64,000 nt of DNA from Sycon ciliatum (lineage: Eukaryota > Porifera > Calcarea > Leucosolenida > Sycettidae): contig NC_088655.1 of NCBI RefSeq assembly GCF_964019385.1, positions 15,620,357-15,684,356 on the forward strand, in the 5' to 3' direction. Both the position numbers and the translations under genes were made by a program. Below, piece after piece: positions 3,865-63,138 of the stretch. Every line of letters starts with the position of its first letter. Within the stretch, counting starts at the first letter, position 1. The notes below the pieces were generated by a model. It saw nothing but the letters and a program-made list of their open reading frames with translations, did not search any database and had not been told where the DNA came from.

Positions 3865-4321
3865 GGGAGTAGCAGCAGGGGAAGCTGAGAAAACTCACAA
3901 TAAATCAGCTGCCACCACCCTTCCTCTATCGTTTTGCCTCGTTCTGGAACTCATTTCTTTAAATCTCCTCTTTTCGGTTTATCAGTTGTCTGGAACAAGC
4001 TTCCTGAGAGCCTACGCAGGGAGCGATCTTCTGCTAAGGCTCGGTTTCTCTTGAAGGACCATTATTTAACGTACAAATTTTCCACCACTGGAATTCCTGA
4101 TTTTCGTATCTACTTCGAAGTAGCTCTCGTCATGTATTCTGTTTCTCCCTGGTGGTTTTACCTGTAGTTTTCCCTGAGCAGTGTTTCTGCTAAGTACTAT
4201 TTTCCCTTCTCCCTTTTCACTTCCCTTTCGTCTCATCCACCCTTCCAGGAAACTCCCCCGATAAGTATCCATTTACCTTTGGAGAATCCTTCAAATAAAG
4301 TCTAAATGTAATGTAATGTAA
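3865..4321 (+). pseudogene. LINE 3' end with (TAATG)n tail
   Basis: The plus strand encodes HFFKSPLFGLSVVWNKLP followed by ESLRRERSSAKARFLL, ending at a stop near 4167. The pattern 'FF.nS...WN.LP..lr....s...Fk' is the extreme C-terminus of CR1/Jockey-type LINE ORF2. After about 150 bases of UTR the copy ends in AATAAAGTCTAAATG followed by TAATG units (4305-4321), a typical short-repeat LINE tail. It is 5'-truncated at about 3865 and abuts a PLE piece in the opposite orientation. Confidence 0.65.
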
Positions 4322-5048
4322 ATCCCATCCGGTGCTTATGTTGACATGGGGTTTAGCATCACGAATCTCAATCGCCTCGCGCAGTTTGCGAAGGGCTCGA
4401 TCAGGCTCTCTCCCCATTACTTCAACTGCAGAGAATGCACTTTGCCCATAGTTGAGCTTGCATCCAGGGCGAGTGGTGCGAAAATGTTGGCCCCATGGCT
4501 TGTCGAGTTCCTGTCGTCTTGCCTCACCATTATGTTCTTCCAGGCCAGTTTCCAGAAAGCGGCCAGTCTCACCAACATATTGTTCCGGACATTCTTTGCA
4601 CTTCAGCGGATATACAACATTCTTCTGCATACATACATCCTGTCCCCCGGATATTCAAGAGATACACGGCCCCTTTGGGCGACCTCTCTTTTTCGGTTGG
4701 AGCGGATTTGCAGCCTTGATACATAGAGGAGGAACGAAGGCGGAGCGACACAATGTGCGCCTCAGGCTACCAGTGTGCTCATATACGACTCTAACCGGAA
4801 TTTCATACTTTCTGATTGCTTTATTCACTGCTTGATGTACTTTATCTGACTTATATGGAAGCTTTAGAAATGCGCAGCATGGGTTGGCACGGCGACGATG
4901 CTTTGGCCTCATGGTAGGCCTTGGCGGATAATGCTCGAAAAGGTGGCAGATTATGCTTTTTTTGCACCGAAATTGGCAGAACCATACAAACCTTATGGCG
5001 GGCAATTCCTCGAGTTCTGCTCCATTTCTTTATCCACATACCAAACAT
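4322..5048 (-). pseudogene. Penelope-like element fragment: RT thumb, AT-hook linker, GIY-YIG endonuclease
   Basis: Penelope-like elements (PLEs) encode an RT joined to a GIY-YIG nuclease. On the minus strand, about 4950-4790 reads CAFLKLPYKSDKVHQAVNKA and VRVVYEHTGSLRRTL, the RT thumb region just before the linker. Next comes LQPKKRGRPKG, an AT-hook-like core, near 4690. The nuclease follows in another frame: VVYPLKCKECPEQYVGETGR and FLETGLEEHNGEARR, with the CxxC and the YVGETG start of the domain. The domain ends ALRKLREAIEIRDAKPHVN, where the Glu of REAIEI is the family's conserved residue. At least one frameshift separates linker and nuclease, and the 5' part is missing. It is truncated against the LINE tail at about 4322. 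Confidence 0.8.
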
Positions 5049-12672: not shown

Positions 12673-12930
12673 AGGTAATGACAAACTGTCCACCAGTCGC
12701 ACTTGCTGACTGTATATGATCTGGTTACGCTGGTGGACAGTTAGTCATAACTCGTACCATGTTGTTCTTTCTTTTTATCTTTTACATTGTACCGACTGCA
12801 CATTTTTTCCATTCATTGCCATTTTACGCTTACTGAATCTTCGAAGGTTGATTTTTTATAAATTTATGTATTTTTTTACTTACTTCGAACTAAGGTAAAC
12901 TGATGTGGAACAAATTCCTTGAATTCCTAT
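12673..12930 (+). repeat. R2-like repeat end followed by PLE-type 3' end
   Basis: 12673-12760 holds GTCCACCAG and TGGTTACGCTGGTGGACAGT around TTAGTCATAACTCG, related to R2 at 29210-29335, 39190-39280 and 46870-47040. 12812-12850 encodes FIAILRLLNLRRL, matching the PLE 3' micro-ORF seen in better copies. No hammerhead motif was found here. Confidence 0.45.
12812..12850 (+). pseudogene. degraded PLE 3' micro-ORF
   Basis: In one frame the codons read FIAILRLLNLRRL, against FIAILRLLSPRRLF in the copy at 63003-63074. SP has become NL and flanking frames are shifted. It is recognisable only by comparison with the intact copies at 29969 and 58114. Confidence 0.45.
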
Positions 12931-12966
12931 AGTAGTACAAATATACTCGCACACATCTCCGATATC

Positions 12967-15909
12967 AGTACAGTCTCCTATAGGAGTACCGTCTCCTATA
13001 GGAGTACCGTCTCCTATACTAGTACAGTCTCCTATACTAGTACAGTCTCCTATACTAGTACAGTCTCCTATAGTAGTACAGTCTCCTATAGTAGTACAGT
13101 CTCCTATAGTAGTACAGTCTCCTATAGTAGTACAGTCTCCTATAGTAGTACAGTCTCCTATAGTAGTACAGTCTCCTATAGTAGTACAGTCTCCTATAGT
13201 AGTACAGTCTCCTATAGTAGTACAGTCTCCTATACTAGTACAGTCTCCTATAGTAGTACAGTCTCCTATAGTAGTACAGTCTCCTATAGTAGTACAGTCT
13301 CCTAAAGTAGTACAGTCTCCTATACTAGTACAGTCTCCTATAGTAGTACAGTCTCCTATAGAAGTACAGTCTCCTATAGTAGTACAGTCTCCTATAGTAG
13401 TTCAGTCTCCTATAGTAGTTCAGTCTCCTATAGTAGTACAGTCTCCTATAGTAGTACAGTCTCCTATAGTAGTACAGTCTCCTATAGTAGTACAGTCTCC
13501 TATAGTAGTACAGTCTCCTATAGTAGTACAGTCTCCTATAGTAGTACAGTCTCCTATAGTAGTACAGTCTCCTATAGTAGTACAGTCTCCTATAGTAGTA
13601 CAGTCTCCTATACTAGTACAGTCTCCTATACTAGTACAGTCTCCTATACTAGTACAGTCTCCTATAGTAGTACAGTCTCCTATAGTAGTACAGTCTCCTA
13701 CACTAGTACAGTCTCCTATACTAGTACAGTCTCCTATACTAGTACAGTCTCCTATAGTAGTACAGTCTCCTATAGTAGTACAGTCTCCTATAGTAGTACA
13801 GTCTCCTATAGTAGTACAGTCTCCTATAGTAGTACAGTCTCCTATACTAGTACAGTCTCCTATAGTAGTACAGTCTCCTATAGTAGTACAGTCTCCTATA
13901 CTAGTACAGTCTCCTATACTAGTACAGTCTCCTATAGTAGTACAGTCTCCTATACTAGTACAGTCTCCTATACTAGTACAGTCTCCTATAGTAGTACAGT
14001 CTCCTATAGTAGTACAGTCTCCTATAGTAGTACAGTCTCCTATAGTAGTACAGTCTCCTATAGTAGTACAGTCTCCTATAGTAGTACAGTCTCCTATAGT
14101 AGTACAGTCTCCTATAGTAGTACAGTCTCCTATAGTAGTACAGTCTCCTATTGTAGTACAGTCTCCTATAGTAGTACAGTCTCCTATAGTAGTACAGTCT
14201 CCTATAGTAGTACAGTCTCCTATAGTAGTACAGTCTCCTATAGTAGTACAGTCTCCTATAGTAGTACAGTCTCCTATAGTAGTACAGTCTCCTATACTAG
14301 TACAGTCTCCTATACTAGTACAGTCTTCTATAGTAGTACAGTCTCCTATAGTAGTACAGTCTCCTATAGTAGTACAGTCTCCTATAGTAGTACAGTCTCC
14401 TATAGTAGTACAGTCTCCTATAGTAGTACAGTCTCCTATAGTAGTACAGTCTCCTATAGTAGTACAGTCTCCTATAGTAGTACAGTCTCCTATACTAGTG
14501 CAGTCTCCTATAGTAGTACAGTCTCCTATAGTAGTACAGTCTCCTATAGTAGTACAGTCTCCTATAGTAGTACAGTCTCCTATTGTAGTACAGTCTCCTA
14601 TAGTAGTACAGTCTCCTATAGTAGTACAGTCTCCTATAGTAGTACAGTCTCCTATAGTAGTACAGTCTCCTATAGTAGTACAGTCTCCTATAGTAGTACA
14701 GTCTCCTATACTAGTACAGTCTCCTATACTAGTACAGTCTTCTATACTAGTACAGTCTCCTATAGTAGTACAGTCTCCTATAGTAGTACAGTCTCCTATA
14801 GTAGTACAGTCTCCTATAGTAGTACAGTCTCCTATAGTAGTACAGTCTCCTATAGTAGTACAGTCTCCTATAGTAGTACAGTCTCCTATAGTAGTACAGT
14901 CTCCTATACTAGTACAGTCTCCTATAGTAGTACAGTCTCCTATACTAGTACAGTCTCCTATAGTAGTACAGTCTCCTATAGTAGTACAGTCTCCTATAGT
15001 AGTACAGTCTCCTATAGTAGTACAGTCTCCTATAGTATTACAGTCTCCTATAGTAGTACAGTCTCCTATAGTAGTACAGTCTCCTATAGTAGTACAGTCT
15101 CCTATAGTAGTACAGTCTCCTATAGTAGTACAGTCTCCTATAGTAGTACAGTCTCCTATAGTAGTACAGTCTCCTATAGTAGTACAGTCTCCTATAGTAG
15201 TACAGTCTCCTATAGTAGTACAGTCTCCTATAGTAGTACAGTCTCCTATAGTAGTACAGTCTCCTATAGTAGTACAGTCTCCTATAGTAGTACAGTCTCC
15301 TATAGTAGTACAGTCTCCTATAGTAGTACAGTATCCTATAGTAGTACAGTCTCCTATACTAGTACAGTCTCCTATAGTAGTACAGTCTCCTATAGTAGCA
15401 CAGTCTCCTATAGTAGTTCAGTCTCCTATAGTAGTACAGTATCCTATAGTAGTATAGTCTCCTATAGTAGTACAGTCTCCTATAGTAGTACAGTCTCCTA
15501 TAGTAGTACAGTCTCCTATAGTAGTACAGTCTCATATAGTAGTACAGTCTCCTATAGTAGTACAGTCTCCTATAGTAGTACAGTCTCCTATAGTAGTACA
15601 GTCTCCTATAGTAGTACAGTCTCCTATAGTAGTACAGTCTCCTATACTAGTACAGTCTCCTATACTAGTACAGTCTCCTATAGTAGTACAGTCTCCTATA
15701 CTAGTACAGTCTCCTATAATAGTACAGTCTCCTATACTAGTACAGTCTCCTATACTAGTACAGTCTCCTATAGTAGTACAGTCTCCTATACTAGGACAGT
15801 CTCCTATAGTAGTACAGTCTCCTATAGTAGTACAGTCTCCTATACCCAGTACAGTCTCCTATAGTAGTACAGTCTCCTATAGTCGTACAGTCTCCTATAG
15901 TAGTACAGT
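12967..15909. repeat. 18-bp minisatellite, about 163 copies
   Basis: Unit CAGTCTCCTATAGTAGTA repeated head to tail over about 2.94 kb. The main variant changes TAGTAGTAC to TACTAGTAC; rarer ones change single bases, such as TTCAGT or GTATCC. As 18 is a multiple of 3, two frames stay open for long stretches (SYSSTV and QSPIVV repeats) and the third is full of stops, so the long ORFs here are not genes. The first units (12967-13010) carry TAGGAGTACCG, so the edges are more divergent than the core. Confidence 0.97.
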
Positions 15910-16792: not shown

Positions 16793-16891
16793 TATTATTA
16801 TTATTATTCAACGCAATAAATAGAGTAAGCTGCGCACTCAGTACAAACACCATAAGCAAAACTTGTTTTCATGTATAATAAATAAGCTTGT

Positions 16892-16925
16892 TCCTAAACG
16901 TTTTCGTCGCCATCTCATCAGAGGA
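16892..16925 (-). ncRNA. hammerhead-like motif, design B (left arm)
   Basis: Reverse complement of the motif at 18146-18179: TCCT, CTGATGA, a 9-base stem II (GATGGCGAC), GAAA, the short stem III AA-CG-TT, then AGGA closing stem I. Stem II pairs poorly, so activity is doubtful. Confidence 0.4.
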
Positions 16926-17155
16926 TTACTGGCAAATCAACAAAAGCTCTTAACTCAATATATATACGCACAATGCAAGTAATAATTTAGACCCTAACTA
17001 GTGCGATAAAATGAGAGCTGAAAGAAACATTACACCATTCAACGATATCAGGTGACAACAAATGCGATAAATTCACCACTAGAAAATTACCAAGCAACCA
17101 CAAACGAGAACTACTGATCTAAATTCACAAACAATTTCAACGTAAACAAATTCTG

Positions 17156-17908
17156 ATGCCTGTTGAGGCACGGTCGTCAAGGCCTAGACGAGGTCGTCCC
17201 CCAAAGATTGGTACTGCGACTGGAGGTGCACCCTCGCTGGGGACGGAACCAACTGGGGTGTCGTTGTCTTCTTCGTCGGCATCGGCTTGTTCGTCATTGC
17301 CTTCGTCTTTACCGTCTCTTCCTTCTATCCCGTCATCATCGTTGGTATCTGCGGTTTCGTCTTCTTTGACTTCCTCTGTACCATCATCCGGTGTGTCCAC
17401 CTCCGGTGGCAAAAAGCGTGGCCGGCCACCGAAGAAACCACCGGATGGTGTGTCTGCGGGACCAGTGACTCGCTCTAGGGCGAGGTTAGCAGAGTCTTTA
17501 TCGTCTCCGTCGTTGTCGTCATCGTCGTCGTCAGCGTCTTCCTCATCTCCCTCCTCCTCTTCATCAACATCAACAGCCATTGGAACGTCAAAGGGAGCAT
17601 CATCGCAGCAGGCAGTGCCAGCAACGGACGTGCCTTTGGTACGGACATCTACATCGGCCTCGTCTGGATTGGCAGTAGCGGCAAGGAATGTCAGGTCGGT
17701 TTCATTGTCACGTAATTCCAAAGTATGTACTGGTTCTAGTAGCGTTGTTAGGGTGTATGAATCTTCTATCGCCAACCATCTTGTTCAGAATAGTGATTGT
17801 CGTTCTAGTTATGCTGATGATTGCTTTTCTGTTTGGTCTCGTTCACGTAGTCAAAGGTATTTGCGTGTATTGGAGTCTATTTACATTTTTACCACCGATT
17901 TTGTGTAG
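17156..17908 (+). pseudogene. PLE C-terminal region: AT-hooks, Ser-rich linker, GIY-YIG tail
   Basis: Open frame of 250 codons in the centre of the inverted dimer. Residues 6-17 (SSRPRRGRPPKIG) and about 82-93 (GGKKRGRPPKKPPDG) are AT-hook motifs with the RGRP core. A long Ser run lies between and after them. The end reads SIANHLVQNSDCRSSYADDCFSV and LRVLESIYIFT. This matches the C-terminal part of PLE GIY-YIG domains as in 57640-57833 (SAVFCHLLSRPDCVSVYDDSHFSV, LKVLEAVCIRV). The family's end 'P.LC.QKK....LKLF' appears in the next frame (ILCRQKKNLFTLKLF, to 17948), so a frameshift cuts the protein. RT and the GIY-YIG start are missing. Confidence 0.75.
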
Positions 17909-18145
17909 GCAGAAAAAGAATTTGTTTACGTTGAAATTGTTTGTGAATTTAGATCAGTAGTTCTCGTTTGTGGTTGCTTGGTAACTTTCTAGTGGTGAAT
18001 TTATCGCATTTGTTGTCACCTGATATCGTTGAATGGTGTAATGTTTCTTTCAGCTCTCATTTTATCGCGCTAGTTAGGGTCTAAATTATTACTTGCATTG
18101 TGCGTATATATATTGAGTTAAGAGCTTTTGTTGATTTGCCAGTAA

Positions 18146-18179
18146 TCCTCTGATGAGATGGCGACGAAAACGTTTAGGA
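18146..18179 (+). ncRNA. hammerhead-like motif, design B (right arm)
   Basis: Stem I TCCT (18146-18149) pairs with AGGA (18176-18179). The core CTGATGA is at 18150-18156, stem II spans 18157-18165 (GATGGCGAC, poorly paired), GAAA is at 18166-18169, stem III is AA-CG-TT and the cleavage-site base is T18175. It lies about 240 bases after the PLE coding end, the same place as in better copies. Stem II has lost pairing, so it is probably weak or dead. Confidence 0.5.
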
Positions 18180-18217
18180 ACAAGCTTATTTATTATACAT
18201 GAAAACAAGTTTTGCTT

Positions 18218-18295
18218 ATGGTGTTTGTACTGAGTGCGCAGCTTACTCTATTTATTGCGTTGATTACATTTTTATCTCCACGGAAGCTTTTTAAT
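18218..18295 (+). CDS. PLE 3' micro-ORF (tail replaced by ATT run)
   Basis: ATG at 18218 opens MVFVLSAQLTLFIALITF and LSPRKLFN, after which the frame runs into TAT codons of the ATT tail. The hydrophobic stretch followed by SPRKLF matches the intact micro-ORFs at 29969-30037 and 58114-58182. A truncated mirror copy is on the minus strand at 16810-16853. Function is unknown; it looks like a short membrane-spanning peptide with a basic end. Confidence 0.5.
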
Positions 18296-18586
18296 TATTA
18301 TTATTATTATTATTATTTGTAAGAAGGGTTTGCTCCCCACACCGGAGCTCGCGCTATTCCGCCGACTTTACTTGACACTTGACTGACTCACGACTGCCAT
18401 CCAGAGCACACGAGAAGTCCATCGAACCTTCAACTCGGCAAACCTGCAAGAAAGCACCACTCCCTCACCGTCCAGGAGCGACACTGACCCACACTGGTTT
18501 CTGGTGTTCATGAGGTGTTTGTCGCGCTGGAAGCGGAGCGTCTCTGTAAGTTTGTATCCCTGGTGATGTTTGTGCCTGGAGAGCAC

Positions 18587-18624: not shown

Positions 18625-18687
18625 CTACTCAAGCTCAACTGATGAGGGGTGAATTCACCGAAACACTGTGTATTGAGCAGGGAGTGG
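18625..18687 (+). ncRNA. type I hammerhead ribozyme, design A
   Basis: Outer stem CTACTC/GAGTGG (18625-18630 with 18682-18687, one G-U). Internal loop AA/AGG. Inner stem I is GCTCAA/TTGAGC (18633-18638 with 18673-18678). The core CTGATGA is at 18639-18645. Stem II spans 18646-18659 with one mismatch here, since GGGG faces CACC. GAAA is at 18660-18663. Stem III is ACA/TGT around CTG, and cleavage is expected after GTA at 18672. Hammerheads of this layout are known from PLEs. Fold paired by hand. Confidence 0.8.
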
Positions 18688-21162: not shown

Positions 21163-21350
21163 GGAAGTGTGAGTTACGAAGTCTGAAGAAAATGTTGAAC
21201 GGCCTCTGCTGGGATGACGACTACACCATAGCTCAGTGGTTAGAGCATCGCTGGCTACAAGCGAGGGTCCCTGGTTCGAGTCCTGGTGGTGACAGTCAAT
21301 TTTTTCTTCAGACTTTTCCCGTTTGTCTCTTTCCCTCAAACCAGTTAATA
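21163..21350 (+). repeat. tRNA-derived SINE-like repeat, copy 1
   Basis: Nearly identical over about 188 bases to 21444-21632. Within it 21219-21293 looks like a tRNA: TAGCTCAGTGGTTAGAGCA (A box) and GGTTCGAGTCC (B box), with a 5-bp anticodon arm TCGCT/AGCGA around GGCTACA (would-be anticodon CTA). The acceptor and T stems carry mismatches, so it is not a working tRNA gene. The tRNA part is enclosed by an inverted repeat: AAGTCTGAAGAAAA before it and TTTTTCTTCAGACTT after it. Confidence 0.7.
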
Positions 21351-21443: not shown

Positions 21444-21632
21444 GGAAGTGTGAGTTACGAAGTCTGAAGAAAATGTTGAACGGCCTCTGCTGGGATGACG
21501 ACTACACCATAGCTCAGTGGTTAGAGCATCGCTGGCTACAAGCGAGGGTCCCTGGTTCGAGTCCTGGTGGTGACAGTCAATCTTTTCTTCAGACTTTTCC
21601 CGTTTGTCTCTTTCCCTCAAACCAGTTAATAT
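21444..21632 (+). repeat. tRNA-derived SINE-like repeat, copy 2
   Basis: Direct near-identical copy of 21163-21350, separated from it by about 95 unrelated bases. The end CCCTCAAACCAGTTAATA also occurs at 19563-19582 and, inverted, at 58200-58220, so the 3' part is more widely dispersed. Confidence 0.7.
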
Positions 21633-29335: not shown

Positions 29336-29471
29336 TAATAATAATAATTTGATAACCGCAATCAGTAATACAAGCTGGGTCGACATTTGTGTACATTTTA
29401 TTCATGTAATGTAAAACTGTGGAGACAATGTGTAATAAAACGATGAAAATGTGAAGAAATGGTGTAGAGAA

Positions 29472-29521
29472 AATGAGGATTCAAACAGGTTTTCGTACAA
29501 CACTCATCAGGAATCTTCGTT
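29472..29521 (-). ncRNA. type I hammerhead ribozyme, design B (left arm)
   Basis: On the minus strand: stem I GATTC (29515-29511) pairs with GAATC (29482-29478), extended after an A/C mismatch by AACGA/TCATT with one mismatch. Core CTGATGA is at 29510-29504. Stem II is GTG-TTG-TAC. GAAA follows (29494-29491), stem III is AAC-CT-GTT, and T29483 is the cleavage-site base. Confidence 0.7.
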
Positions 29522-29833
29522 GTACTAAAGGACAATGAAAACAAAATTGAACTACTATAGAAAATCTAACGAAGTAGTGGTTGCGACTTCGGCGATGGGT
29601 GTGGGGAGCAAACCATTTCATAGAAAATCTAAGTTAGAGAAATAACACTAAGAACAACAGCAGTGAAATTTACAAGTGTGAATTTCATCAATGAAAGCGA
29701 GTCTCGCTAAGCGCGTCTCGCTTTCATTGATAAAATTCACACTTGTAAATTTCACTGCTGTTGTTCTTAGTGTTATTTCTCTAACTTAGATTTTCTATAA
29801 TAGTTCAATTTTGTTTTCATTGTCCTTTAGTAC

Positions 29834-29883
29834 AATGAAGATTCCTGATGAGTGTTGTACGAAAACTTGTTTGAATCCTCATT
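29834..29883 (+). ncRNA. type I hammerhead ribozyme, design B (right arm)
   Basis: Stem I has two helices: AATGA/TCATT (29834-29838 with 29879-29883) and GATTC/GAATC (29840-29844 with 29873-29877), separated by a single A/C mismatch. Core CTGATGA is at 29845-29851. Stem II is only GTG-TTG-TAC (29852-29860). GAAA is at 29861-29864, stem III is AAC-TT-GTT, and cleavage is expected after T29872. It has all conserved core bases with unusually small stems II and III. Confidence 0.75.
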
Positions 29884-29968
29884 TTCTCTAACCCATTTCT
29901 TCACATTTTCATCGTTTTATTACACATTGTCTCCACAGTTTTACATTACATGAATAAAGTGTACACAA

Positions 29969-30037
29969 ATGTCGATCCAGCTTGTATTACTGATTGCGGT
30001 TATCAAATTGTTGTCTCCTCGCCGTTTGTTCAAATAA
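29969..30037 (+). CDS. PLE 3' micro-ORF, intact copy 1 (22 residues)
   Basis: ATG 29969 to TAA 30035-30037 encodes MSIQLVLLIA then VIKLLSPRRLFK. It lies about 85 bases after the hammerhead and directly before the AAT-repeat tail. Compared with the copy at 58114-58182, the last 16 codons differ at nine synonymous sites and only one amino acid (V/L), a pattern expected if the peptide is selected. It is hydrophobic for about 14 residues, then S-P-R-R-L-F-K, which could be a small membrane peptide. No known function; the ORF could also mark an RNA feature. Confidence 0.6.
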   Translation: MSIQLVLLIAVIKLLSPRRLFK

Positions 30038-35680: not shown

Positions 35681-35743
35681 CCACTCCCTGCTCAATACAC
35701 AGTGTTTCGGGGAATTCACCCCTCATCAGTTGAGCTTGAGTAG
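35681..35743 (-). ncRNA. type I hammerhead ribozyme, design A, consensus copy
   Basis: All pairings of the 18625 copy are present, and stem II is perfect (GGGG/CCCC around TGAATT). On the minus strand: CTACTC 35743-35738, GCTCAA 35735-35730, CTGATGA 35729-35723, GAAA 35708-35705, and cleavage between 35696 and 35695 after GTA. This copy should be the best test case for activity. Confidence 0.85.
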
Positions 35744-36766: not shown

Positions 36767-36829
36767 CCACTCCCTGCTCAATACACAGTGTTTCGGGGAA
36801 TTCACCCCTCATCAGTTGAGCTTGAGTAG
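36767..36829 (-). ncRNA. type I hammerhead ribozyme, design A, consensus copy
   Basis: Identical in core and stems to 35681-35743. Its own upstream TATA is mutated (CAGATAAG on the minus strand near 36856). Confidence 0.85.
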
Positions 36830-39099: not shown

Positions 39100-39285
39100 C
39101 CACCGTTAGGCTGTTGGTTAGCGCTTCGGAGATATGCTAGGGCTAGGTGCCAGGTGTTCGAACGCCTCAGTACTCTCTCAGTCTTGTGCCTAGCTATTTG
39201 CAGTTCCTGACTGTATAATAATAGTGTCAGTGATGGACAGTTACTCTTAACTTGTATACATATGTCCCTTTCCTTTTTAAATTAT
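39100..39285 (+). repeat. tRNA-like head followed by R2 end
   Basis: GTTGGTTAGCGCTTCGGAG (A box like) and GGTGTTCGAACGCC (B box) at 39110-39165. It runs into CTGACTGTATAATAATAG..GGACAGTTACTCTTAACTTG, an R2 end. This suggests R2 may be a tRNA-headed SINE family. Confidence 0.45.
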
Positions 39286-39485
39286 TTAAATTGATATCTC
39301 CACATAGATTATTCATAATTGTAAAAATTGTTTCAAATTTTCCAGTGTTCTGAACAAATCCCCTTTCCTTTTCGTTGTGTGCCCTGCAATCATCGTTTCA
39401 CATTTTGCTCATGCATGTCTACATTATAGGAAATGCGTACAAAGGACCTAGTCCTCCTTATTAGCTGCTGCCTCTGTAACTGACT

Positions 39486-40514: not shown

Positions 40515-40824
40515 TGGAGCGTCTCTGTAAGTTTGTATCCCTGGTGATTTTTGTGCCTGGAGAGCTCTATACACTGTACCGGTAAGTGGTGCTCTTCAGG
40601 CACAATTTTCCTCAGCCTACTCAAGCTCAACTGATGAGGGGTGAATTCCCCGAAACACTGTGTATTGAGAAAGGAGTGGTGCTTTCTTGCAGGCTTGCCG
40701 AGTGGATGGTTCGATGGACTTCTCGTGTGCTCTGGATGGCAGTTGTGAGTCAGTCAAGTGTGAATTCAAGTCGGGAGGAAAGCGCGAGCTCCTATGTAGG
40801 GAGCAACGCACAATTCCCCAAGTA
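40515..40824 (+). mobile_element. hammerhead element A, unit 5 (right half only)
   Basis: Begins GGAGCGTCTCTGTAAGTTTG. It has the ribozyme at 40617-40679 and runs to the outer arm GAGCTCC..GGGAGCAA. The TATA is mutated to CTATACAC with a small insertion. It is more diverged from the other units. Confidence 0.65.
40617..40679 (+). ncRNA. type I hammerhead ribozyme, design A
   Basis: Stem I GCTCAA (40625-40630) with TTGAGA (40665-40670) loses only its outermost pair. CTGATGA is at 40631-40637, the perfect GGGG/CCCC stem II at 40638-40651, GAAA at 40652-40655, stem III ACA-CTG-TGT, and cleavage after GTA at 40664. The outer helix CTACTC/GAGTGG is intact. Confidence 0.8.
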
Positions 40825-42159: not shown

Positions 42160-42530
42160 ATCAGGCGTGATTTCCGATCACAAACTTGTTATGTTTCTTG
42201 CATTGTTTAGGTGTCATTTCTCACCATCTGTATAGAAAAGCTTCCTGACGAACGTTTTGCCAAACCTAGTTCGAAACATTCTTTATCTCTCTGCATCTTT
42301 CCTTTTATCGTTCTACACATACATTTCCACTTTCATTCCTTCTATGAGCATTACTGGCATCAATATTTTTTTGTGAATTTGAATGAATTTGTGAAAATCA
42401 GTGATTGAGTGTGACCCTGTGATGCTCACAAGCCAAATTTTTACATATAGCATTTGTGGTATATCAATTCAGCTAGTATTGTTGATTGTGATTCTCAAAC
42501 TTTGACTTTTTTTATCTCACACATAATCAT
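42160..42530 (+). mobile_element. decayed PLE 3' end
   Basis: Contains CTGACGAACG..TTCGAAAC at 42243-42281 in the place where a hammerhead would lie, but stems do not pair. A degraded micro-ORF follows at 42461-42505. Related to inverted dimer 2 (shared ATCAATTCAGCTAGTATTG-type segment). Confidence 0.5.
42461..42505 (+). pseudogene. degraded PLE 3' micro-ORF
   Basis: Reads I-SIQLVLLIVILKL-stop. The start codon has become ATA, and a TGA replaces the SPRRLFK end. Nearly the same peptide as MSIQLVLLIAVIKL at 29969, with different synonymous bases. Confidence 0.5.
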
Positions 42531-57045: not shown

Positions 57046-57415
57046 AAGAAGTTGAAGACACCACTGCAGCTGTACTTATGGTTGATAAATATGGTGGTAA
57101 AGACACACCTGGCAATATGGCGGTAAACACACGCCTGCCCACACACGCTCTCTAGGCTGCAAAGTTCTGGCACAGAGCTCTCCTTCTCACCAACACCACC
57201 ATCAGTTCGCGCCTGGCGCCTGGTCGATGCATGGCTGGCAGTATCCGGCATAGCAGGCTGGTACATCAAGTAGCGCATGGCACATAGATGATGACGCAGC
57301 AACGACATAGCTCGATTGCGACGTTCGTTTCGTCCCCGCTGGACTCATCAGGCAATCTTCTTCTTGGATGTCTTCATACGGAGCTTGACTCGGGAGAATG
57401 AAGTTGAAGACACAG
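57046..57415 (-). mobile_element. hammerhead element C (period 352 bp, retrozyme-like)
   Basis: GAAGTTGAAGACAC occurs at 57048 and again at 57400, so one unit of 352 bp plus the start of a second is present, as in tandem retrozyme or PLE long-repeat units. On the minus strand the unit contains a textbook hammerhead (57314-57357). A related piece is at 34703-34758. No RT coding of its own. Confidence 0.6.
57314..57357 (-). ncRNA. type I hammerhead ribozyme, design C, textbook pairing
   Basis: On the minus strand: stem I GATTGC (57357-57352) pairs with GCAATC (57319-57314), six perfect pairs. CTGATGA is at 57351-57345. Stem II is GTCC-AGCGG-GGAC, four perfect pairs. GAAA follows, stem III is ACG-AA-CGT, three perfect pairs, and the cleavage triplet is GTC with C at 57320. 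All conserved core bases are present. Best ribozyme candidate in the window by sequence. Confidence 0.85.
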
Positions 57416-57455
57416 CAGTCAAACGACTTGTGATGCTGGTGGAGATGATGGAGCC

Positions 57456-57833
57456 ATGTTGGAGGCTGATAAGGAGTGCAGTGAGACTGAGCATCAAACG
57501 GATGATGAGGAAGTGACTGATGATGATGATGGTGGTGATGAGGACGATGATGATGAAGATGAGACGGAGGACGAGGATAAGGCGGGGGAGGTTGAAGGAA
57601 AGGAGCGGGATGAGACGGAAGAGAGCAACGTGAGCAAAAAGTCAGCTGTATTTTGTCACTTGTTATCACGTCCAGATTGTGTTAGTGTGTACGATGATTC
57701 TCACTTTTCTGTTTTGTGCCGTGCAAGTTATGTTAAGCAGTTGAAGGTTCTGGAAGCTGTATGTATTCGTGTGCATAATCCTGTTCTTTGTAAACAAAAG
57801 AAGCATGTAGTCGCGCTAAAGTTGTTCTCGTAG
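57456..57833 (+). pseudogene. PLE C-terminal region: acidic linker + GIY-YIG tail
   Basis: Open frame with a strongly acidic run (residues about 12-60, mainly D and E, from EHQTDDEEVTDDDDGGDEDD onward). The PLE nuclease tail follows: SAVFCHLLSRPDCVSVYDDS, HFSVLCRASYVKQLKVLEAV, CIRVHNPVLCKQKKHVVALK, LFS-stop. The end is intact and matches 17770-17948 and 30426-30500. The GIY-YIG start and RT are absent, so the ATG is probably fortuitous. A hammerhead and micro-ORF follow at 58032 and 58114, giving the full 3' architecture of this family in one copy. Confidence 0.75.
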
Positions 57834-58031
57834 CTGGTTATCAGATGTAAATGTTGTGTCATGTTGCACTGTATCACCTCATGCTTTGTGCCTGCACTCA
57901 GTTATATATGTTATCACTATGTTTGACACCTATTATGTAATGCTGTAGCACTTCCCTTTTTTGTTCACACTTTTAATTATGCTGTTATAAAATGTTCTAT
58001 TTTTTGTACACAGTACCCTCAGTTCCGATAC

Positions 58032-58071
58032 TATTCACTGATGAGCGGAACACGAAAATCGATTTTGAATA
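58032..58071 (+). ncRNA. type I hammerhead ribozyme, design B
   Basis: Stem I TATTCA (58032-58037) pairs with TGAATA (58066-58071), six perfect pairs. CTGATGA is at 58038-58044. Stem II is GCG-GAA-CAC with one mismatch (GTG would be perfect). GAAA is at 58054-58057, stem III is AAT-CG-ATT, and the cleavage-site base is T58065. It sits 200 bases after the PLE stop codon. Confidence 0.75.
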
Positions 58072-58113: not shown

Positions 58114-58182
58114 ATGTCTGCATCTATTATACTCCTAATTGCACTAATAAAATTGCTTTCTCCACGCCGACTCTTTAAATAA
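58114..58182 (+). CDS. PLE 3' micro-ORF, intact copy 2 (22 residues)
   Basis: ATG 58114 to TAA 58182 encodes MSASIILLIA then LIKLLSPRRLFK, directly followed by the AAT-repeat tail. It lies 43 bases after the hammerhead of the same copy. Against the copy at 29969-30037 the C-terminal 16 residues are identical except V/L, with nine synonymous differences (for example TTA/CTC, GCG/GCA, CCT/CCA, CGT/CGA, TTG/CTC). Hydrophobic then basic. Function unknown. This is the only copy directly linked to recognisable PLE coding, hammerhead and tail. Confidence 0.6.
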   Translation: MSASIILLIALIKLLSPRRLFK

Positions 58183-58224
58183 TAATAATAATAATAATAT
58201 TAACTGGTTTTGAGGGAAAGAGAC

Positions 58225-62985: not shown

Positions 62986-63002
62986 TAATCAACTTTGAAG
63001 TA

Positions 63003-63074
63003 TTTAAATAACCGACGAGGAGACAACAGTCGTAAAATAGCGATGAAAAATATCAATTGTGCACTCATAACCAT
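63003..63074 (-). CDS. PLE 3' micro-ORF, stop lost
   Basis: ATG at 63074 (second ATG at 63068) encodes MVMSAQLIFFIAILR then LLSPRRLFK. The next codon is TAC where intact copies have TAA, so the frame reads on. Peptide is conserved, codons differ from the other copies. Confidence 0.5.
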
Positions 63075-63100: not shown

Positions 63101-63138
63101 ATTCCAGAACGTTTTCGTGTGACTATCATCAGTGGAAC
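63101..63138 (-). ncRNA. hammerhead ribozyme, design B, stem II decayed
   Basis: On the minus strand: stem I GTTCCA (63138-63133) pairs with TGGAAT (63106-63101), with one G-U. CTGATGA is at 63132-63126. Stem II TAG-TCA-CAC has lost two pairs of a presumed GTG-TCA-CAC. GAAA is at 63116-63113, stem III is AA-CG-TT, and C63107 is the cleavage-site base. Confidence 0.65.

Follow-up and report, generated by a model that had tools for sequence, protein, structure and literature searches.

A 22-residue segment at the ends of hammerhead-bearing PLEs in Sycon ciliatum corresponds to the start of the elements' own long ORF

Described PLEs and the hammerhead-bearing elements of the window

Hammerheads in PLEs have reportedly been the subject of an earlier study. 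The end structure that concerns us here has a close counterpart in Pen2a_Av, a Penelope of Adineta vaga: its pseudo-LTR (pLTR) holds 12 codons from the start of the ORF, or 22 when an optional 31-bp tail is present, the pLTR is inverted, the tail can occur on one of the inverted pLTRs, and the target duplication is 9 bp (PMC3846280). In vitro, reverse transcription of the Anolis carolinensis Poseidon PLE (PAc) begins in the start of the ORF at two adjacent sites, genomic PAc copies end on those sites, and the RNA that is required lies within the ORF's first 172 nt (PMC11167929). Metazoan type I hammerhead retrozymes share hammerheads, tandem copies and co-existence with PLEs with the elements studied here, yet according to PMC7229834 they are non-autonomous, whereas two of our four families, A and D, have members that encode a reverse transcriptase (RT).

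The window, by which we mean the whole 64-kb stretch of Sycon DNA that was analysed, carries elements that compare with these systems in different ways. Like Pen2a_Av, family A has about 12 codons without the tail and 22 with it, but the host and the sequence are different, and the word hammerhead is absent from the text of PMC3846280. The pLTR-ORF-pLTR layout with a hammerhead at the pLTR is shared with PAc. However, PAc start sites lie 111–118 nt into the ORF while the ends here fall at 25–79, and the PAc ORF begins within the hammerhead. In the elements studied here, the ATG comes 76–80 nt (family A) or 61–64 nt (family D) downstream of the base with which the hammerhead core opens. The anatomy that explains the segment is already known (PMC3846280, PMC11167929). 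A search for a short PLE ORF or a PLE micropeptide in print found none in the collection of papers searched.

That the host elements are hammerhead-bearing PLEs, as the original prediction had it, appears to be right. The core pattern has 11 matches in the window against 0.05 expected, and matches to the core motif are found in the family A pLTR (a minimal core at 58038..58057, plus strand), in the right and left arms of family B (29845..29864, plus; 29491..29510, minus) and in the right and left arms of family C (18150..18169, plus; 16902..16921, minus). The family D core, CTGATGATAGTCACACGAAA at 63113..63132 on the minus strand, is not matched by this pattern, which is the stricter one. No Rfam hammerhead reaches the gathering score in the 64-kb window, and the Rfam model overlaps 58012-58070 and 29820-29877 far below threshold; the hammerheads are accordingly called putative here, on the strength of their core motif.

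We base the PLE label on domain order, pLTR, hammerhead core and tail. In the six loci with the longest informative frames (L061, L062, L063, L074, L075 and L076), extra ORF-start segments stand beside the ORF-bearing unit as pLTRs, in tandem or inverted. These pLTRs include the ORF start and an optional tail of about 30 bp, as seen from ends at ORF nt 25–44 and 66–79; there is a single ORF with a reverse transcriptase domain, scoring above the Pfam cut-off in family A; and short target site duplications are present. A second core type, CTGATGAGGGGTGAATTC[AC]CCGAAA, occurs at 18639-18663 (plus), 35705-35729 (minus), 36791-36815 (minus) and 40631-40655 (plus), without the peptide after it, and also in locus L065 at 202 and 679. 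Its source may be a different PLE or retrozyme family.

The segment and the long ORF

Six places had been listed as encoding the peptide. Four are clear copies, at 58114, 29969, 18230 and, on the minus strand, 63068; the other two, at 42461 and 12812, are only decayed relics, and two shortened copies had been missed. Positions 58114-58182 translate to MSASIILLIALIKLLSPRRLFK and a stop (family A, peptide A), and 29969-30037 to MSIQLVLLIAVIKLLSPRRLFK and a stop (family B, peptide B). Codons 1-22 occupy 58114..58179 (plus) at the tailed end of a 5'-truncated family A copy and 29969..30034 (plus) at the tailed right end of a family B copy with inverted pLTRs. In family C they occupy 18230..18295 (plus), again a tailed right end, and read LSAQLTLFIALITFLSPRKLFN, without an ATG at the position of the peptide's M. 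The family D copy, 63003..63068 on the minus strand, reads MSAQLIFFIAILRLLSPRRLFK from 63068 to 63003 and has no stop after the K. We considered the stretch after this K as host DNA and rejected this, as it consists of three further PLE ORF codons: 62994..63002 (minus) is codons 23-25 (YFK) with one mismatch in nine nt against the family D ORF, so that this copy reaches about 9 nt deeper into the ORF than codon 22.

Peptides A and B, searched against the window, gave E values among the matches listed of 7e-8 for the A locus (query B), 5e-5 for 18230 and 5e-7 to 3e-7 for 63068. Scores of 98–104 for the four main copies are self-matches to their own queries; the null, taken as the top score over 20 locally shuffled windows, is 42. 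Against this maximum the relic at 42461..42502 (plus), like the family B N-terminus, scores 48, and that at 12812..12850 (plus; register start 12791), like the family D N-terminus, scores 47. The two shortened copies are inverted left ends without a tail: the first 44 nt of the family B ORF at 29343..29386 (minus, read from 29386 to 29343; score 58) and the first 37 nt of the family C ORF at 16805..16841 (minus, read from 16841 to 16805; score 48). They belong to the same insertions as the tailed ends at 29969 and 18230. Positions 16805-18298 and 29343-30037 are two head-to-head inverted-pLTR copies in which a short end is paired with a tailed one, and the second copy is hardly more than its two arms. 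At 39252-39317 (plus), LYTYVPFLFKLFKLISPHRLFI scores 44 against the peptides and is perhaps a further decayed PLE end.

We searched the genome from which the window comes, 538 Mb in 313 contigs, for peptides A and D. With peptide D, 150 of 5151 candidates were scored and all 150 matches were identical to the query; three lie in frames of 1006 codons, one in a frame of 807, and 145 in frames of 25–218, while one 1730-codon frame crosses masked N and is uninformative. Counted from the peptide's ATG, the 1006-codon frames (L061–L063) have 988 codons. These frames read MSAQLIFFIAILRLLSPRRLFKYFKRRYTRDQ..., and the long-ORF start in these three loci, with peptide D first, reads ...LSPRRLFKYFKRRYTRDQTECLNN..., identical to the 63068 copy over codons 1-22. 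With peptide A, for which 150 of 4938 candidates were scored, there were two frames of 1084 codons, one of 1085 and one of 722. From peptide A's ATG the frames of L074, L075 and L076 encode 1078–1079 residues, MSASIILLIALIKLLSPRRLFKYLKRRYNSEQ..., the first 22 of which are those of the 58114 copy. Beyond codon 22 the long frames do not stop but run on, with LSPRRLFK followed directly by Y[LF]KRRY. In families A and D, the 22-residue peptide is the first 22 residues of the PLE's own RT-encoding ORF. For families B and C, homology with A and D suggests that the same segment is the N-terminus.

The family A and family D proteins are about 63% identical over residues 1-788. Family A matches RVT_1 with 30.5 bits, above the Pfam cut-off of 29.6, and family D with 26.8 bits (E=5e-6), below it. 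C-terminal to the RT there is a GIY-YIG match in both (family A, 18.1 bits, E=0.0034; family D, 17.6 bits, E=0.0049), whose placement and order after the RT fit a canonical EN+ PLE; both scores are below the Pfam cut-off of 22.6. In L061, at 4280-4780, the family D protein past the GIY-YIG-like region has an AT-hook-like RGRPRK stretch and a long acidic stretch; by eye, the acidic stretch of family A and the RGRP stretches of family C look similar.

Just upstream of the 58114 segment, 57408..57833 (plus) encodes the C-terminal 141 residues of the family A PLE protein, and its translation matches residues 938-1078 of the full-length ORF with 95.7% identity in L074 and L076 and with 88.7% identity in L075. 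The 58114 copy is thus a 5'-truncated PLE: the end of the ORF is followed by the 3' untranslated part, then by the hammerhead core, and last by codons 1-22 of the unit that comes next. Most of the open stretch at 17123..17908 (plus) encodes the linker of the family C protein together with its C-terminal part; compared by eye, its letters are nearly those at the end of homologue P0027.

Could the segment instead be an independent short interspersed element outside the PLE? Long frames are indeed rare among the matches listed (5 of 150 for peptide D, 4 of 150 for peptide A), but full-length copies carry the same pLTR at their ends and ahead of the ORF, and in the window copy the PLE C-terminus lies directly upstream. 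The loci L061–L063 and L074–L076 refute an independent element for families A and D, and we regard the chance of it overall as next to negligible.

Conservation of the segment

Over the 22 codons, the four families differ with dS from 1.7 to saturated and dN of 0.25–0.46 (pS 0.67–0.89, pN 0.22–0.34). The original prediction had placed conservation at the level of the peptide, and its count for A against B over codons 7-22, nine codons with synonymous differences and one amino acid, is reproduced from the letters. The four-family values agree with it, and conservation appears to act on the peptide. This would also be expected of a separate functional 22-residue micropeptide expressed from PLE ends, but identical codons open the long ORF, whose frame continues in full-length copies. 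Moreover, the segment does not stand out from the rest of that ORF. Between families A and D, the first 22 codons show 68% protein identity with pS 0.68 and pN 0.28, and codons 23-788 show 64% with pS 0.82 and pN 0.24; 46% of the 22-codon windows within codons 23-788 are as conserved as the N-terminal 22 or more so. Judged from these comparisons, the segment is constrained as part of the enzyme, and no more than the ORF at large.

Young copies also speak against a micropeptide: among 30 of family A, the substitution rate is equal in the peptide (16 in 1980 cells) and upstream (28 in 117 columns × 30 copies). Only 4 of the 16 peptide substitutions are nonsynonymous and 10 fall at one shared site; with so few substitutions, and with copies selected by similarity, this set is unsuited to testing selection after insertion.

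Protein relatives extend the pattern beyond the window. Queried with the family D ORF, public protein sequences yielded 549 relatives, 120 of which were listed, and 74 of the 120 cover this N-terminus in an alignment, filling at least 18 of its first 25 columns. By eye, the closest homologues come near ..LF.AIL.FLSP...LFKY[LF]KRRYS, and others fit more loosely (LFKY[LF]..RY); a strict motif search finds 16 of the 120, against the 74 found by occupancy of alignment columns. These data bear on the reading that conservation tracks an RNA fold or a primer-binding element instead of protein. Some nearby RNA signal is likely, given that the end sites cluster in the segment (see below), and the required Anolis RNA lies inside the ORF's first 172 nt (PMC11167929). 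But synonymous sites are near saturation between families while the amino acids are kept, and many homologues keep the amino-acid pattern. We therefore consider it improbable that RNA structure or priming, and not the protein, accounts for the conservation.

Where insertions end and where the stop comes from

We mapped ends in ORF coordinates on 117 usable arms; the window copy (L001), arms truncated at the edge of a locus, and matches that fell below 85% identity or were shorter than about 50 bases had been set aside. Forty-one arms end at nt 20–45, 70 at nt 60–85, 4 continue into the ORF and 2 end elsewhere; since the loci were picked by similarity to the tailed end, the ratio of short to tailed ends is no estimate of prevalence. 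The actual end positions form two clusters, at ORF nt 25–44 and 66–79, and are joined to other DNA. Outside the clusters there are five ends between nt -48 and 7, of which those in L017, L031 and L059 coincide with a locus edge and those in L046 and L051 are real. L043 has an end at nt 242, in a match of 75% identity, and the arms in L061–L064 carry the ORF. Because the family A query extends no further than nt 69, it does not separate tailed ends from ORF-bearing arms, of which L018 is one.

What follows the ends is variable. Codon 22 is immediately followed by a stop in just 3 of the 31 terminal copies examined in family D, and in 27 of 30 family A copies, mostly because these adjoin TAA repeats; other family A copies, such as L016 and L020, have different DNA there. 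At 12 of 25 family D loci the element is flanked on either side by direct repeats of 6–9 bp, for instance GCTTCA in the full-length L061, where they set the element boundaries at ORF nt 66 and 35, and L032 has a 17-bp direct repeat of TAA/TTA type; target duplications are unreadable wherever TAA repeats form both flanks. Given the different DNA beyond the ends, the 3 stops in 31 family D copies and the direct repeats that mark the boundaries, the apparent stop codon is target DNA, often a TAA repeat, outside the element. At 58180..58200 (no strand assigned), a TAA repeat adjoins the family A element end; we take it to be target DNA and the source of the apparent stop. The description of the copies at 58114 and 29969 as intact from ATG to TAA was misleading, since their TAA lies outside the element.

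Many ends carry only about 8–14 codons. Two of the three family A copies examined at full length, L074 and L076, are of this kind: their 3' end has 11–12 codons, MSASIILLIALI, followed by isoleucine codons of a repeat, with 22 codons on the inverted arm; the 3' end of L075 has 22 codons and then CSSLRIY.... The 27 of 30 family A copies with an ATG-to-TAA frame are what a micropeptide would need, but its stop is not part of the element, as the family D copies show, and at many ends 8–14 codons are all there is. Together with the continuing long frame, this makes a micropeptide very improbable. The separate micro-ORF, put forward as a new PLE product, is the N-terminus of the long ORF copied into element ends, with a stop from the adjoining DNA. 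This disposes of what had looked like a new transposon micropeptide; the false candidate arose where elements end inside the ORF start beside TAA repeats that supply a stop, and the same trap may arise in other PLE-bearing genomes.

At a probability of about 0.97, we favor the reading that the segment is the PLE ORF start left at insertion ends, that the stop-like TAA comes from the target, and that the conservation reflects selection on the N-terminus of the enzyme. PLE units lie in a tandem or inverted array, each with a single long ORF encoding the RT and then the GIY-YIG-like region, and the pLTR spans the 3' end of a unit, the putative hammerhead and the first ORF codons of the next unit. 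Reverse transcription would begin inside the ORF start, where the enzyme would use either of two sites separated by about 30–40 nt; from published PLE biochemistry (PMC11167929), we infer that the observed ends are probably these start sites. New insertions would then end with about 8–14 codons (no tail) or 22–26 codons (tail), joined directly to target DNA. In a TAA-repeat target an in-frame stop could result, so that the fragment would mimic a finished micro-ORF, while peptide-level conservation would stem from selection on the enzyme N-terminus in full-length copies.

Where a left minus arm and a right plus arm could be read in one locus, 41 of 48 pairs combine a short with a tailed end. 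The initial list had 51 pairs, 44 of them short/tailed, from which three spurious cross-family pairings in the window (B-A, C-A and C-B, all short/tailed) were removed by hand. The seven remaining rows are L018, L061, L062 and L063 (ORF-bearing arm), L046 (two rows, one tailed/tailed) and L051. Loci had been selected for a tailed end, so it is the unselected partner arm that carries the evidence; because of this, the near-exclusive pairing looks like a rule and may reveal how the target strands are primed. It is tempting to speculate that each insertion uses both end types once, in an obligate asymmetry in which the two target strands are primed at two different RNA sites, and we give this an even chance. 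Pairing inside one locus is no proof of a single insertion: L022 and L023 have identical flanks and may be one duplicated event, and the left arm of L002, about 1 kb from its right arm, adjoins another PLE end and may be a separate insertion. The optional tail on one inverted pLTR is already published (PMC3846280); the near-exclusive pairing as a mechanistic rule, if true, would be the new part, and paired short and tailed ends could serve as a simple genome-wide readout of PLE priming.

Other features of the window deserve brief mention. Pfam matches on five smaller window ORFs were all below cut-off, and the only one that looked meaningful is a weak GIY-YIG match at 4217-4654 on the minus strand (E=0.0092, below cut-off), perhaps a fragment of another PLE type. 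Two tRNA matches of 37.9 bits each, at 21224-21291 and 21505-21572, lie 281 bp apart and could be a local duplication or tRNA-derived repeats. A long array at 12923-15864 has a period of six residues (18 bp), with several frames open and SPIVVQ repeats on the plus strand.
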